Positions 7,903 through 13,336 of a stretch of 59,138 nucleotides of DNA are shown here, one piece after another. Source of the DNA: an uncultured Candidatus Actinomarina sp. (lineage in GTDB: Bacteria > Actinomycetota > Acidimicrobiia > Actinomarinales > Actinomarinaceae); NCBI GenBank assembly GCA_902555055.1, contig CACDQN010000006.1:1-59138 (forward strand), read 5' to 3'. The position numbers and the translations under genes were made by a program. A model generated the notes under the pieces. The model did not search any database, had not been told where the DNA came from, and saw nothing but the letters and a program-made list of their open reading frames with translations. Each line of letters opens with the position of its first letter. Position 1 is the stretch's first letter.

Positions 7903-8311
7903 AGCTAAATATACACTGAACTTCTACACATACATTTAGAGGTAAACTTTTAACACCTACCGCTGATCTTGTTGCTTTTTCTGTAAAATAATTTGTTAAT
8001 GTATCTGTAAAACCATTTAAGACCTTTGCATGATCTTCAAAAGTTTCATCAGCATTAACAAACCCAACAACATTTAAGGGTTGAAGTTTATTAATATCAG
8101 TATTTGCTTTCAAAGTTGATATTGTCAGTTCAGCGCATAAAGCTGCAGCTAAATAAGCATCATCTATGGTTATATCATTTGGTACTTTACCAATATATTT
8201 CTTGTTATCACTAATTGGAACATGTCCTGAAGTGAATATAAGATTCCCAGATTTTTTGTAGGTAACATAGTTCCCTATGGCTTTAGGGGGTAAGGGCAAT
8301 TCTTCATTCAT
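7895..8311 (-). CDS. RidA/YjgF/UK114 family protein
   Basis: This 138-residue Rid-family protein belongs to a family of trimeric deaminases that hydrolyse reactive enamine/imine intermediates from PLP enzymes. FTSGHVP, AAALCAELTI and the C-terminal RSAVGVKSLPLNVCVEVQ are visible. They include the conserved Arg and Glu of the ligand-binding cleft, with an LPLNV variant typical of a non-archetypal Rid subgroup. Its exact substrate is not predictable. It is three bases downstream of gap and overlaps the amidotransferase gene, so all are probably on one transcript. Confidence 0.88.
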   Translation of the reverse strand: MNEELPLPPKAIGNYVTYKKSGNLIFTSGHVPISDNKKYIGKVPNDITIDDAYLAAALCAELTISTLKANTDINKLQPLNVVGFVNADETFEDHAKVLNGFTDTLTNYFTEKATRSAVGVKSLPLNVCVEVQCIFSYE

Positions 8312-8314
8312 TTT

Positions 8315-9310
8315 TTAGAGTAGCTCCTTTATTAAATCAACCACTCTATTAGAGTAACCCCACTCATTGTCATACCAGCATACAACTTTTAAATGATTGT
8401 TATCCAAAAGCTGAGTTGAAGATGCATCATATATGCTTGAGTGTGGATTATTAAGAATGTCGGTTGATACAAGTGGAATTTCTGAATACTCCAAGATACC
8501 TTTTAGCTCACCCTCAGACGCTTTTTTAATCGCACTATTTACTTCTTCAATAGTTACGTTTTTCTCAAGTTCAACAACTAAATCAACAACACTACCATCA
8601 GGAACAGGAACTCTCATTGCCATACCATCAAGTTTTCCATTTAATTCAGGTAGTACCATACCTACTGCTTTAGCTGCTCCAGTAGAAGTTGGGATAATAT
8701 TTTGTGTAGCACTCCTTCCTCTTCTGAAATCGCTGTGTGTTGTTTCAGCTAGGGCTTGATCATTGGTGTAGGCATGAATAGTAGTCATCAATCCTGATTT
8801 AATTCCAAAATTATCATTAAGAACTTTAGCAATAGGCGCTAGGCAATTTGTAGTACATGAAGCATTTGAAACGATTTTATCATCATCATTTAAGTCGTTA
8901 TTATTTACTCCCAGAACGATTGTTGCATCTATTTCATCTTTGGGTGGTACAGTAAGTAGAACTTTTTTTGCTCCAGCTTCAATATGCTTATTGAGTGATT
9001 CATTGTCTCTAAAAATTCCAGTAGATTCAATGACTACGTCGACATTATGCTCTTTCCATGGCAAATCTTTAGGATCTTTTATTGACACAAGTTCAATAGT
9101 TCGTTCATTTACTTTTAATTTATTACCTTCTACTGACACATCTGCATCTAAAACACCCATTACTGAATCATGCTTTAGTAAATAAGCTAAATTTTCATAG
9201 TTTCCTAAATCATTAATGGCTACAACATTAAATGGCGAATTGTTTTCAATTATAATTCTTAGAATTGATCTCCCAATTCTACCGAATCCATTAATTGCAA
9301 TATTTCCCAT
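8315..9310 (-). CDS. gap: Glyceraldehyde-3-phosphate dehydrogenase (catalytically complete copy)
   Basis: This 331-residue phosphorylating GAPDH converts glyceraldehyde 3-phosphate to 1,3-bisphosphoglycerate. The NAD fold starts INGFGRIGRSILR. The active site SNASCTTNCLAP holds catalytic Cys152, and TTIHAYTNDQ holds His179 with the Thr182 and Asp184 of the substrate phosphate site. Arg233 is in MRVPVPDGS, and WYDNEWGYSNRV is the nicotinamide-binding end. Two bases separate it from a GAPDH-like paralogue upstream, whose last codons (ATGGATATGGAG) also supply a GGAG ribosome binding site for this ATG. Confidence 0.97.
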   Translation of the reverse strand: MGNIAINGFGRIGRSILRIIIENNSPFNVVAINDLGNYENLAYLLKHDSVMGVLDADVSVEGNKLKVNERTIELVSIKDPKDLPWKEHNVDVVIESTGIFRDNESLNKHIEAGAKKVLLTVPPKDEIDATIVLGVNNNDLNDDDKIVSNASCTTNCLAPIAKVLNDNFGIKSGLMTTIHAYTNDQALAETTHSDFRRGRSATQNIIPTSTGAAKAVGMVLPELNGKLDGMAMRVPVPDGSVVDLVVELEKNVTIEEVNSAIKKASEGELKGILEYSEIPLVSTDILNNPHSSIYDASSTQLLDNNHLKVVCWYDNEWGYSNRVVDLIKELL

Positions 9311-9312
9311 AT

Positions 9313-10314
9313 TTACTCCATATCCAATTTTTTTAGTGTATCAATAATTCGTGCTGCATATCCCCATCCATTATCAAACCAAATAATTAATTTAATTTTT
9401 TTATTATTAATACCCATTGTGGCAAGACCATCTACTAGACCGGAAAGTGTGCTTCTGACTACATCGGAAGAAACTATAGGATCATAAGTAATTCCTATTA
9501 TGTTTTTCAAAATATTTTTAGACATATCCTCTATGAGTCCATTTATTTCTTCAATAGATGTTTCTTTTTCTAAGTCAATGGTTAAATCAACAGTACTTCC
9601 ATCAGGTACGGGAACTGTCATTGATGATGAAGCGACTTTATTTTTAAATTCTGGAAGTACCTCAACTATTACATCAGAAGATTTAGTAATACTGGGTATG
9701 ATATTTTCTCCAGCAGCTCTATTTAATCTAAATCCTTCTCCAGCAACATCTGCCAGTCTATTAGAGTTTGAGTATCCATGTACTGTTGTTAAGAACGCAC
9801 GCTTAATTCCAACTTTTTCGTCTAGATGTTTCAAAATTGGTGAGACTGCATTTGCAGTATTTGACCCTAACGAAAAGGAATTCTGCGTGAAGTCAACTTT
9901 ATCATCATTTGCACCAGGAATATATATTTGTACATCACCAAATTCCATCGGTGTAGAAGCTATTAAGACTTTTTTACAACCTTTATTGATGTGTCCATTA
10001 ATTTCATCAATCATTTGGGGTTTACCAGTAGCAAGAATTACTACATCAGTATTTAAAGATTTCCAATCTGCTTCTGTTGAATCTTTCCAATTATTGAAGA
10101 GAATTTCTTTTCCATTAACAATGATTCCATTTTCAGATTCTTCAATTGTTGCGTCAAGCTTTCCATATATAGAGTCATACTTAAGAAGATAGATAAGATT
10201 TTTCTTGTCAGCTGTGTCTGAAATTGAAATTATGTTTATATGCTCATTGGAAATAGATTGTCTAAATAAATCTCTACCTATTCTTCCAAATCCTAAGAGT
10301 GAAACTTTTGTCAT
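9313..10314 (-). CDS. GAPDH-like protein lacking the catalytic cysteine
   Basis: This 333-residue protein aligns along its full length with the neighbouring GAPDH and keeps the NAD fold (LLGFGRIGRDLFRQ), His179 in TTVHGYSNSN and the nicotinamide end WFDNGWGYAARI. The active-site position is Asn152 (LGSNTANA instead of NASCTTNC). The substrate phosphate-site residues are also changed: Thr182 to Ser, Asp184 to Ser, Arg233 to Thr, and Gly211 to Lys at the second anion site. A dehydrogenase mechanism through a thiohemiacetal is therefore not possible. It may be a structural or regulatory GAPDH partner, an NAD sensor, or a new activity. It has a good ribosome binding site (AGGAAAATAAATG) and an intact frame, so it is not decaying visibly. 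Confidence 0.9.
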   Translation of the reverse strand: MTKVSLLGFGRIGRDLFRQSISNEHINIISISDTADKKNLIYLLKYDSIYGKLDATIEESENGIIVNGKEILFNNWKDSTEADWKSLNTDVVILATGKPQMIDEINGHINKGCKKVLIASTPMEFGDVQIYIPGANDDKVDFTQNSFSLGSNTANAVSPILKHLDEKVGIKRAFLTTVHGYSNSNRLADVAGEGFRLNRAAGENIIPSITKSSDVIVEVLPEFKNKVASSSMTVPVPDGSTVDLTIDLEKETSIEEINGLIEDMSKNILKNIIGITYDPIVSSDVVRSTLSGLVDGLATMGINNKKIKLIIWFDNGWGYAARIIDTLKKLDME

Positions 10315-10335
10315 TTATTTTCCTAATAATTATTT

Positions 10336-10354
10336 TTGTAACATCTTGTTACAA
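10336..10354. promoter_or_regulatory. Inverted repeat in the gap-like / cofG divergent promoter region
   Basis: TTGTAAC, a five-base spacer, then GTTACAA: a perfect 7+7 palindrome in the 72-base region between the GAPDH-like gene (minus) and cofG (plus). The size and placement fit a dimeric repressor site acting on one or both promoters. No regulator gene lies beside it, so the factor is unknown. Confidence 0.4.
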
Positions 10355-10386: not shown

Positions 10387-11505
10387 ATGATAAATATAAC
10401 CAAAAATATCAATGATTTTATATTTGGCGATATTCCTACAAGTGAATTAATTGAAGAGTCACATCAGAAAAAAATAGAACATTTCGGTAAACCTATAACT
10501 TATAGTCCTAAAGTATTTATTCCCCTAACAACTATGTGTAGAGACAAATGTGCTTATTGTACATTTGTAAAATCTCCTAATGATGGTGGTGAATACCTAT
10601 CAATAAATGATGTGCTGAGTATTGCTAAAGCTGGAGATGCTGTAGGTTGCTACGAGGCTCTTTTTACTCTAGGTGACAAACCGGAGATAAAGTGGAAAGC
10701 TGCAAAAGATCAGCTAAATGATTTAGGTTATGAATCAACTCACCAGTATTTAATTAATTGCATGAAGGAAGTTAATAAAACTTATAACATTCTTCCACAT
10801 GCTAACCCAGGATTGATGTCTAAGCAGGAAATCACCGATTTGAAACTCCACTCACCTTCGGGTGGCATAATGATTGAAAGTTTCTCAAAAGATATTTACT
10901 CAAAAGGAAAACCGCATTATAAAACAACAACTAAGTATGTTGACTTAAGATTAGAAACATTAAACAATGCTCTAGAAGTTAAATACCCGATGACCACAGG
11001 TTTACTATTAGGACTAACTGAAACTAAAGATGAGTTAATAAATGATATTGAGCAAATAATCAATCTATCAAAAAATAATCCAGCTATTCAAGAAATAATT
11101 TTGCAGAATTTTAGAGCAAAACTTAATACATTGATGAGAAACAATGCTGAAGTAACGAATGATTTGTATTTGAGAATTATTGCTACAACTAGAATTTTTG
11201 TTCCTGGTCATATTTCAATCCAGGTTCCACCAAATCTTTCTCCAGATATAACTTTATTTTTAAAAAGTGGAATAAATGATTTAGGAGGCATTTCACCTTT
11301 AACTATTGACTGGGTTAATCCAGATCATTTATGGCCTGATTTAGAAAAATTAAATACTGAAGTTATAAATTCAAATCAAATATTAAAAAAAAGGCTTCCC
11401 GTTTATCCTCGATTTATTGAAAAAGAATGGTTAAATGAAGCAATGTTTGAAAAAATTAATAATATTATTGATACTGACGGTTACCCGAGGGAAAATAATG
11501 AGTAA
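10387..11505 (+). CDS. cofG: FO synthase subunit CofG
   Basis: This 372-residue radical-SAM enzyme, with CofH, makes 7,8-didemethyl-8-hydroxy-5-deazariboflavin (FO), the chromophore of coenzyme F420. The cluster motif is CRDKCAYC in TTMCRDKCAYCTF. TLGDKPE, LPHANPGLM, TGLLLGLTE and the QNFRAK segment are CofG landmarks, followed by GGISPLTIDWVNP. The gene has no evident Shine-Dalgarno sequence, so it may be leaderless. Its end (YPRF, then GYPRE) resembles the linker of actinobacterial fused FbiC, and cofH begins inside its last codons. The two are separate genes here. Confidence 0.95.
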   Translation: MINITKNINDFIFGDIPTSELIEESHQKKIEHFGKPITYSPKVFIPLTTMCRDKCAYCTFVKSPNDGGEYLSINDVLSIAKAGDAVGCYEALFTLGDKPEIKWKAAKDQLNDLGYESTHQYLINCMKEVNKTYNILPHANPGLMSKQEITDLKLHSPSGGIMIESFSKDIYSKGKPHYKTTTKYVDLRLETLNNALEVKYPMTTGLLLGLTETKDELINDIEQIINLSKNNPAIQEIILQNFRAKLNTLMRNNAEVTNDLYLRIIATTRIFVPGHISIQVPPNLSPDITLFLKSGINDLGGISPLTIDWVNPDHLWPDLEKLNTEVINSNQILKKRLPVYPRFIEKEWLNEAMFEKINNIIDTDGYPRENNE

Positions 11506-13336
11506 AAATATTTCATACTTGCGAATACGACCTTGTGATAATGACAATGAAATATATTTAAACTCGAGAAAAAATGAAGGAACATCAGCATTCTTAATCA
11601 AAGAAGACACCTCTGTTGATATTGAATTAATTCATAGTAAAGAGTTTCAAACTATATCTAAAAATATTGAGATTGATAGTGATATGTGGATAGTTAATGA
11701 AAATAACTGGAAAACGTATAAAACCTCAGAGAGTAAAAGGCTTATATATAAACATTCAGGATCTCGTGAAATTGCTCTTGAAGTCATTGATAGACTAAAT
11801 CCTGGTTTTGTTTTAATAAATAATGTTAGTGATATAGCTTTTTTTAAATCAATTAAAACTAAAAATGAATTTTTAATTAGTAGTTATGCTGATTCGACAG
11901 AAGAAGCTTTATTGCTATCTAATAAGGGAATAGACGACCTTCTACTAAGAGATTGGAGTTCAGAGCAAATATTAGAACTCCAAAATCACATTGGTTTTAA
12001 TTATTACGAGAGAACTGTCTTATCACCTCTTTTTTCTATTGATGAAGCCAGAGAGTTGTTTGATTCAAAAAGATATTTTCGGTACCTTAATGCAAAAGAT
12101 GTAAGAGGTTATAGGCGAGTAAAAACTGAATGGTCTCCTGGTAGTGGTCTTCCTTTACATAAATTAGATAATTTTGAACATAATAATATTTCTCAATTTC
12201 AAGATGAAGTATTTGATGAAATTATTCAAAAAATTAACAATTCAGAGCCGATCAGCGAAGATGATTTATTTAAGTTATTTAAAACATCTGGTACAAAATT
12301 AAATGATATTGTTGAAGTCGCCAATAAGTTAAACCTTGAAAAGAATGGAAATAAAGTAAGTTTTGTTAAGAATAGAAATATTAACTACACAAATCAATGT
12401 TATTACAAATGTGGGTTTTGTGGATTCTCAAAAGGGCCTAATAGTTTAAATTTGAAAGAGAAACCTTACTCTATTGATATTCCAGAGATTGTTGACAGGT
12501 CAGTAGAAGCATATGAAATGGGTGCTTCTGAGGTTTGCCTTCAGGGTGGTATTCATCCCGAATATACTGGCGAATTTTATATGTCTATGATTCAGGAAAT
12601 AAAAAATGCAGTACCCGATTTACATATACATGGATTTACCCCTTTAGAAATATGGCAAGGTGCTGAAACTATTAATACTCCAGTAGAGGAATACTTGGAA
12701 ATGCTTAGGGATGCAGGTTTAAATACGCTTCCTGGCACTGCAGCTGAAATACTCGACGACAGGGTTAGGCGATATTTATGTCCAGATAAAATAACCTCTT
12801 CTCAATGGGCTTACGTTATGGAAGTTGCTCACAGTTTAGGAATTAAATCTACTGCAACAATTATGTTTGGACATATTGATGATGTTCAATCATGGGTGAA
12901 TCATTTTAAATTAATAAGGGATATCCAATCAACTACAGGAGGTTTTACAGAGGTTGTTCCTCTTCCTTTTGTACATATGGGTTCACCAATATACTTGCAG
13001 GGTAAAAGCATGCCTGGACCCACATGGGATGAAGTAGTCCTTATTCATGCCCTCGCAAGAATATTTTTTCTTAACAGCATTGATAATATACAAGCAAGTT
13101 GGGTTAAGTTAGGACATGATGGTGCAGGAAAACTTTTACATGCAGGAGTCAATGACCTTGGGGGAACATTAATAAATGAAAATATTAGTCGTGCTTCAGG
13201 TGCGGATCACGGTCAAGAAACAACTCAAAATCAGTTTATTGAAATAATATCAAACGAAAATAAAATACCCATGTTAAGAAATACGTTGTATACAGATTTT
13301 AAAAAAATGGAAAAAGCTCATACTAAAAATGAATAA
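11498..13336 (+). CDS. cofH: FO synthase subunit CofH with a long N-terminal extension
   Basis: The C-terminal ~370 residues are CofH, the radical-SAM partner that joins a tyrosine-derived fragment to a diaminouracil in FO synthesis. The entry NRNINYTNQCYYKCGFCGF holds Cys301, Cys305 and Cys308, followed by EVCLQGGIHPEY, HGFTPLEIWQGAE, the LPGTAAEILDDRVR run and the C-terminal LGHDGAGKLLHAGVNDLGGT. CofH alone usually has its cysteines near residue 60-70, so about 235 N-terminal residues are extra and I do not recognise them. ATG 11498, behind GAGGGA and overlapping the cofG stop by eight bases, is preferred to an ATG at 11435 that would add residues read from inside cofG. Confidence 0.9.
   Translation: MSKNISYLRIRPCDNDNEIYLNSRKNEGTSAFLIKEDTSVDIELIHSKEFQTISKNIEIDSDMWIVNENNWKTYKTSESKRLIYKHSGSREIALEVIDRLNPGFVLINNVSDIAFFKSIKTKNEFLISSYADSTEEALLLSNKGIDDLLLRDWSSEQILELQNHIGFNYYERTVLSPLFSIDEARELFDSKRYFRYLNAKDVRGYRRVKTEWSPGSGLPLHKLDNFEHNNISQFQDEVFDEIIQKINNSEPISEDDLFKLFKTSGTKLNDIVEVANKLNLEKNGNKVSFVKNRNINYTNQCYYKCGFCGFSKGPNSLNLKEKPYSIDIPEIVDRSVEAYEMGASEVCLQGGIHPEYTGEFYMSMIQEIKNAVPDLHIHGFTPLEIWQGAETINTPVEEYLEMLRDAGLNTLPGTAAEILDDRVRRYLCPDKITSSQWAYVMEVAHSLGIKSTATIMFGHIDDVQSWVNHFKLIRDIQSTTGGFTEVVPLPFVHMGSPIYLQGKSMPGPTWDEVVLIHALARIFFLNSIDNIQASWVKLGHDGAGKLLHAGVNDLGGTLINENISRASGADHGQETTQNQFIEIISNENKIPMLRNTLYTDFKKMEKAHTKNE

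Follow-up and report, generated by a model that had tools for sequence, protein, structure and literature searches.

The DNA analysed here, a stretch of 59,138 nucleotides (the window) from Candidatus Actinomarina (Acidimicrobiia), a marine actinobacterium with a genome of about 1 Mb, encodes a GAPDH paralogue that has lost its catalytic cysteine and probably acts as a non-catalytic subunit, joining the active GAPDH of the adjacent downstream gene in a mixed tetramer. The paralogue is referred to as GapX, a label coined in this analysis. An earlier note on this DNA had proposed three uses for the protein, namely mixed tetramers with the real GAPDH, sensing of NAD, or a new activity. Among these, the comparative sequence evidence favours the mixed tetramer, because one duplication made both genes, the pairing extends across phyla, the stop and start codons overlap, and a conserved S-loop motif is shared by the two proteins.

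Both genes lie on the minus strand. GapX (9313..10314, 333 aa plus stop) is the first gene of the pair, and the true NAD-type GAPDH, gap, occupies 8315..9310 (331 aa). The earlier note had described an intact frame and a good ribosome binding site (RBS) for GapX; a 333-aa ORF was indeed read, and a putative AGGA RBS at 10321..10324, 6 nt before the ATG, is plausible. The ATG of gap at 9310 follows 2 nt beyond the GapX stop codon, and its GGAG RBS sits within the final codons of the paralogue, the coupling site at 9311..9319 being made up of this RBS (9319-9316) and the stop TAA (9315-9313). No further GAPDH was found in the source assembly besides gap and the paralogue, and the GAPDH-I search of the control genomes returned zero additional members. 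Between the divergent starts of cofG and the paralogue, a perfect inverted repeat, TTGTAACA-TCT-TGTTACAA, was observed at 10336-10354. This 8-bp palindrome was rejected as an operator of the paralogue, the second arm being unconserved in relatives, while a TTGATTGTAACAA-like half was present in many of them. The CofH ORF of the window (11435-13336, 633 aa) begins with about 250 aa without a match to CofH or FO synthase, and the CofH domain comes after.

Direct alignment of GapX with the true gap product gave 39% identity and bore out all of the substitutions claimed in the earlier note, which in true-gap numbering are C152N, T182S, D184S, R233T and G211K. One loss absent from that note was added, R197L, which corresponds in position to Arg195 of the second anion site. 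The Asn152 codon AAT of the paralogue (9859..9861, minus strand) stands at the position of the catalytic Cys149 of the literature, and the catalytic Cys152 codon of the true gap is found at 8855..8857 (minus strand). The phosphate-site residues Thr179, Asp181, Arg195, Gly209 and Arg231 are Ser, Ser, Leu, Lys and Thr, respectively, in the window paralogue, while H179, N315, Y319, the GFGRIGR motif and Asp34 were retained. Asp34 is the NAD-selective Asp32 of the literature, and GapX carries both this residue and the dinucleotide motif. Retention of His179, as noted earlier, holds for the window copy and is not universal across the wider family, in which this His gives way to K (four sequences, all from a single Acidimicrobiia family) or R (three sequences, from Acidobacteriota).

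Both GAPDH domains were recognised in the paralogue (PF00044 Gp_dh_N, 7e-26; PF02800 Gp_dh_C, 6e-40), and its 333 aa equal the length of a GAPDH, with no C-terminal extension. With TIGR01534 (type I GAPDH, EC 1.2.1.12), the true gap scored 448 bits, above the curated cut-off of 367.2, while the paralogue scored 270.9 bits, below it. The AlphaFold2 single-chain model of the paralogue has the GAPDH fold (pLDDT 89.8), and the nearest solved fold is G. stearothermophilus GAPDH (1gd1, TM 0.91). Low confidence in the S-loop of the model is not a peculiarity of the paralogue, since the true gap folded as a control shows the same. Type I phosphorylating GAPDH (GapA, 1gd1) and GapX therefore share the fold (TM 0.91), both Pfam domains, the NAD motif, His176, Asn313 and the S-loop frame, but GapX has neither Cys149 nor the two phosphate sites and reaches 271 bits against a cut-off of 367. 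Lacking Cys149 and both phosphate-binding sites, GapX must be considered incapable of the known GAPDH thioester reaction. Replacement of Cys by Ala in the bacterial enzyme abolishes activity, as cited in PMC4106842.

It is hardly conceivable that the paralogue is a decaying duplicate or the product of a sequencing error. The loss of catalytic residues would fit such an explanation, as would the Actinomarina single cell AG-917-O09 (8001-8991 of locus L066, identical to L226; genome G252), in which one frameshift near residue 250 was observed and the remainder of the gene is intact in another frame. Against an error, Asn was found at the Cys position in 39/39 distinct Actinomarina paralogues, and homologues retaining Cys were only 12 of 110, so the loss of Cys claimed in the earlier note is real. 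Against decay, dN/dS for close Actinomarina pairs with enough changes was about 0.06-0.13 for the paralogue (0.02-0.09 for gap), and over 230 Actinomarina pairs the median was 0.155 (0.083 for gap). These values of about 0.1 are far from 1, the value named beforehand as speaking against a maintained gene, and place the paralogue under strong purifying selection. All 30 full-length Actinomarina copies used for dN/dS were intact, and the gene has been retained in streamlined genomes of about 1 Mb. Mean protein divergence of the paralogue (0.39) was similar to the values for ordinary neighbouring genes, cofG and cofH among them (0.41-0.57). Both genes were present in 32 of the 35 Actinomarina genomes searched, and the remaining three, all incomplete, have neither.

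A total of 110 distinct paralogues were found, in Acidimicrobiia, Acidobacteriota, Marinimicrobia and two Oligoflexia-type genomes, a range defined by the phyla that the searches reached. The Actinomycetota samples contained the paralogue in Acidimicrobiia only, where it is present in several families. It was found in 9 of 80 Acidobacteriota genomes sampled and in 13 of 41 Marinimicrobia genomes; occurrence in these two phyla rests on many genomes. Some metagenome bins are misnamed, and single bins are therefore untrustworthy for range. An Actinomarina-like pair was seen in a bin named Euryarchaeota (ARS96) and an Acidimicrobiia-like pair in a bin named Acidobacteria (B22D1T2), both of which are probably misnamed or contaminated.

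Position 149 was occupied by N in 71 of the distinct paralogues, S in 13, C in 12, A in 8, V and F in 2 each, and I and L in 1 each, with at least 12 state changes on the paralogue tree. Asn149 is fixed throughout the Acidimicrobiia clade of this tree. The expectation that homologues would keep Asn next to gap therefore held for the adjacency, which was constant, and for the Asn only in Actinobacteria, where it is the rule. Arg231 was replaced in 107/110 paralogues (T in the window copy), and Glu314 was mostly G (100, including the window copy) or S (9), while Asp32 was retained in 106/110. Cys, His and Arg231 were all retained in only 3/110, from Acidobacteriota, and these members may still be enzymes, which counts against the mixed-tetramer reading. 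GapX is best described as a GAPDH pseudo-enzyme with a likely subunit role.

In 134/134 locus copies in which both genes were readable, a count that includes some genomes fetched twice, gap is immediately preceded by the paralogue in the same orientation; the claim that the two genes always adjoin is thus upheld. At the junction, the stop and start codons typically overlap in ATGA fashion or lie 0-5 nt apart. The complete pair is present twice in each of two Marinimicrobia genomes (L153/L154 in G228; L155/L156 in G236), which suggests duplication of the module as a whole. A wider conserved operon, for example with pgk or tpi, was rejected, as the flanking genes differ between groups in the listed loci read by eye. 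In the same reading, cofG/cofH upstream of the pair was common only to Actinomarina and locus L079. A look-alike of a TrmB-type sugar regulator adjoins the pair in two Marinimicrobia loci (L162 and L166), and look-alikes of glucan-degrading enzymes stand beside it in L162, both as read by eye.

Phylogenetic analysis placed all paralogues of the window type in one clade with support of 100/100. The paralogues together with the paired gaps were split from the solitary gaps, including G. stearothermophilus GAPDH, at 100/99. The paired gaps of four phyla fell on one side of a branch (100/99, 100% of bootstrap trees), separate from the gaps that stand alone in members of these classes and phyla. 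The paired genomes were found partly with the paralogue itself as search query, while the solitary gaps were drawn from broad samples of genomes and picked for closeness to the query. A species-like topology with the Acidimicrobiia gaps forced together was rejected (p-AU 4e-7), and the solitary gaps remained one clade (100/99) when the S-loop was removed from the alignment. The paralogue and its neighbouring gap come from one tandem duplication, and their order has been kept across at least four phyla. From these splits, one duplication made the module, which was then inherited or transferred as a unit. Mirror-tree co-divergence was discarded as evidence of pairing, since the partial r of 0.55 between paralogue and gap was not above the neighbour background (0.61 for gap with another neighbour). 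Five gaps near the module clade (L213-L217) have no paralogue; the active subunit is thus able to do without the partner, which argues against the mixed tetramer. The S-loops of these orphan gaps were mostly without the module motif, and AU tests with the S-loop columns removed did not discriminate between loss of the motif, with reversion of the S-loop once the partner had gone, and a primitive absence (p 0.13 and 0.31).

The S-loop of the paralogue (residues 181-207, YSNSNRLADVAGEGFRLNRAAGENIIP, 9694..9774, minus strand) is the most conserved stretch of the family; residues 181-207 of the true gap lie at 8690..8770 (minus strand). Entropy of the S-loop was 0.38 bits in the paralogues, 0.45 in the paired gaps and 0.86 in the solitary gaps, while for the rest of the protein it was 1.71, 1.06 and 1.19, respectively. 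Elsewhere in the paralogue, no window of the same shape fell below 0.93 bits. The motif RLADVP...R.R.A.ENIIP is common to the paralogue and its partner gap and mostly absent from the solitary gaps, which have RLLDLP...ARAAALSIIP. In comparison with partner gaps, the catalytic and phosphate positions of the paralogue were less conserved than equally constrained sites (p 0.043), and its NAD positions were more conserved (p 0.019). In solved GAPDHs, S-loop residue 188 contacts the cofactor of the R-axis neighbour subunit (PMC3728087). Outside Actinobacteria the predicted catalytic pocket drifts and the putative inter-subunit contact surface does not. The two proteins could share the motif because their common ancestor had it and not because of an interface constraint, and the S-loop also serves homotetramers, which counts against the mixed-tetramer reading.

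No published description of such a bacterial family of Cys-less GAPDHs, or of such a partner, was found in the searchable open-access literature. Erythrose-4-phosphate dehydrogenase, GapB and ArsJ-associated GAPDH are likewise bacterial gap paralogues; they are Cys-dependent catalytic enzymes, and the window protein falls far below their NCBIfam cut-offs. Plastid A2B2 GAPDH (GapA/GapB, PDB 2pkq; PMC3728087) resembles the proposed assembly in having two GAPDH paralogues within a single tetramer, with an S-loop that contacts the cofactor across the R axis. Both plastid subunits are catalytic, and GapB bears a CP12-like C-terminal extension for redox control, whereas GapX is non-catalytic, lacks the extension and is bacterial. 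Trypanosomatid GAPDHL (PMC4106842) has also had its catalytic Cys replaced, is predicted to be inactive and has perhaps kept the cofactor site. The replacement there is Cys152 to Pro, whereas it is Asn in the bacterial window paralogue, and GAPDHL is a eukaryotic part of the paraflagellar rod, of independent origin and not the operon partner of an active GAPDH, so it serves as an analogy only. A second, separate tandem GAPDH pair was observed in four Acidobacteriota loci (L141-L144 in G188, G154, G166 and G198), with a downstream copy that reads SNASCTAHAT and whose phosphate-site residues are changed. The upstream copy of L143 and L144 is otherwise canonical but has Gly instead of the catalytic Cys. 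This pair looks like a convergent case. A solitary Marinimicrobia GAPDH (4880-5863 of L169, G213) also has Gly for the catalytic Cys, with the other key residues largely canonical.

In the mixed-tetramer reading, GapX and GAPDH would be produced in step through coupled translation and would join into a hetero-tetramer, with the contact most likely made across the R axis, the location of the S-loops. GapX may still hold NAD, because its NAD site is kept, and the S-loop of GapX would fill out the active subunit's NAD pocket. The active sites could thereby be tuned by GapX in NAD affinity, cooperativity or stability.

The main rival to the mixed tetramer is that proteins of the Actinobacterial branch have acquired a new activity linked to NAD. 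GapX would then be a free homomeric enzyme with a Cys-independent reaction, for example the oxidation or reduction of a sugar or alcohol, with Asn, His and Ser occupying the former active site. The Acidimicrobiia loop GSNT[AST], in which Asn is invariant over a deep clade, and the kept NAD residues indicate that the old pocket is not freely drifting in this class, and Actinomarina shows no variation at H, S, S and N. Such an enzyme is unlikely: no active-site set is shared by the whole family, position 149 varies among N, S, A, V, I, F, L and C with 12 state changes, and His gives way to K or R in some members. A free enzyme would also have no need of fixed adjacency to gap across phyla, nor any need to conserve its S-loop more strongly than the active sister does.

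GAPDHs are known moonlighters, and a protein with a retained NAD site and lost catalysis that is always co-encoded with gap could be an NAD or redox sensor, regulating glycolysis or gene expression through transient contact with GAPDH or through other targets. This was judged improbable: the protein has GAPDH length and no extra regulatory domain, the wider neighbourhood is not conserved, and joint descent and a joint S-loop motif are explained less simply by a sensor than by a stable assembly. Translation of GapX first and its tight coupling to gap, together with the stretch in the tetramer core being the most conserved, would also suit a chaperone-like or stabilising dummy subunit that helps the partner to fold and has no ligand role. 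Retention of the NAD residues beyond expectation (p 0.019) would be needless in a purely structural part, and a role of this kind is very unlikely.

Textbooks describe bacterial GAPDH as a homotetramer, and sugar metabolism has one of its central points of control at this enzyme. If the mixed-tetramer reading is true, a hetero-oligomeric GAPDH exists in several phyla of environmental bacteria, and one carrier ranks among the smallest free-living actinobacteria of the sea. The broader proposal, about as likely as not, is that of a widespread two-subunit bacterial GAPDH with an obligate, translationally coupled pseudo-subunit, whose S-loop would complete the NAD site and set cooperativity or regulation, the module having arisen from one ancient duplication and having moved or persisted as a unit in at least four phyla. 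Fold-based annotation likely labels the partner as plain GAPDH and so miscounts enzymes. The family also offers a naturally occurring series in which a subunit is retained while its catalytic residues decay: some members that have already lost Arg231 still keep Cys, and others have N, S, A, V, I, F or L in its place. With such a series and two small genes, the takeover of regulation by a pseudo-enzyme is testable in E. coli.
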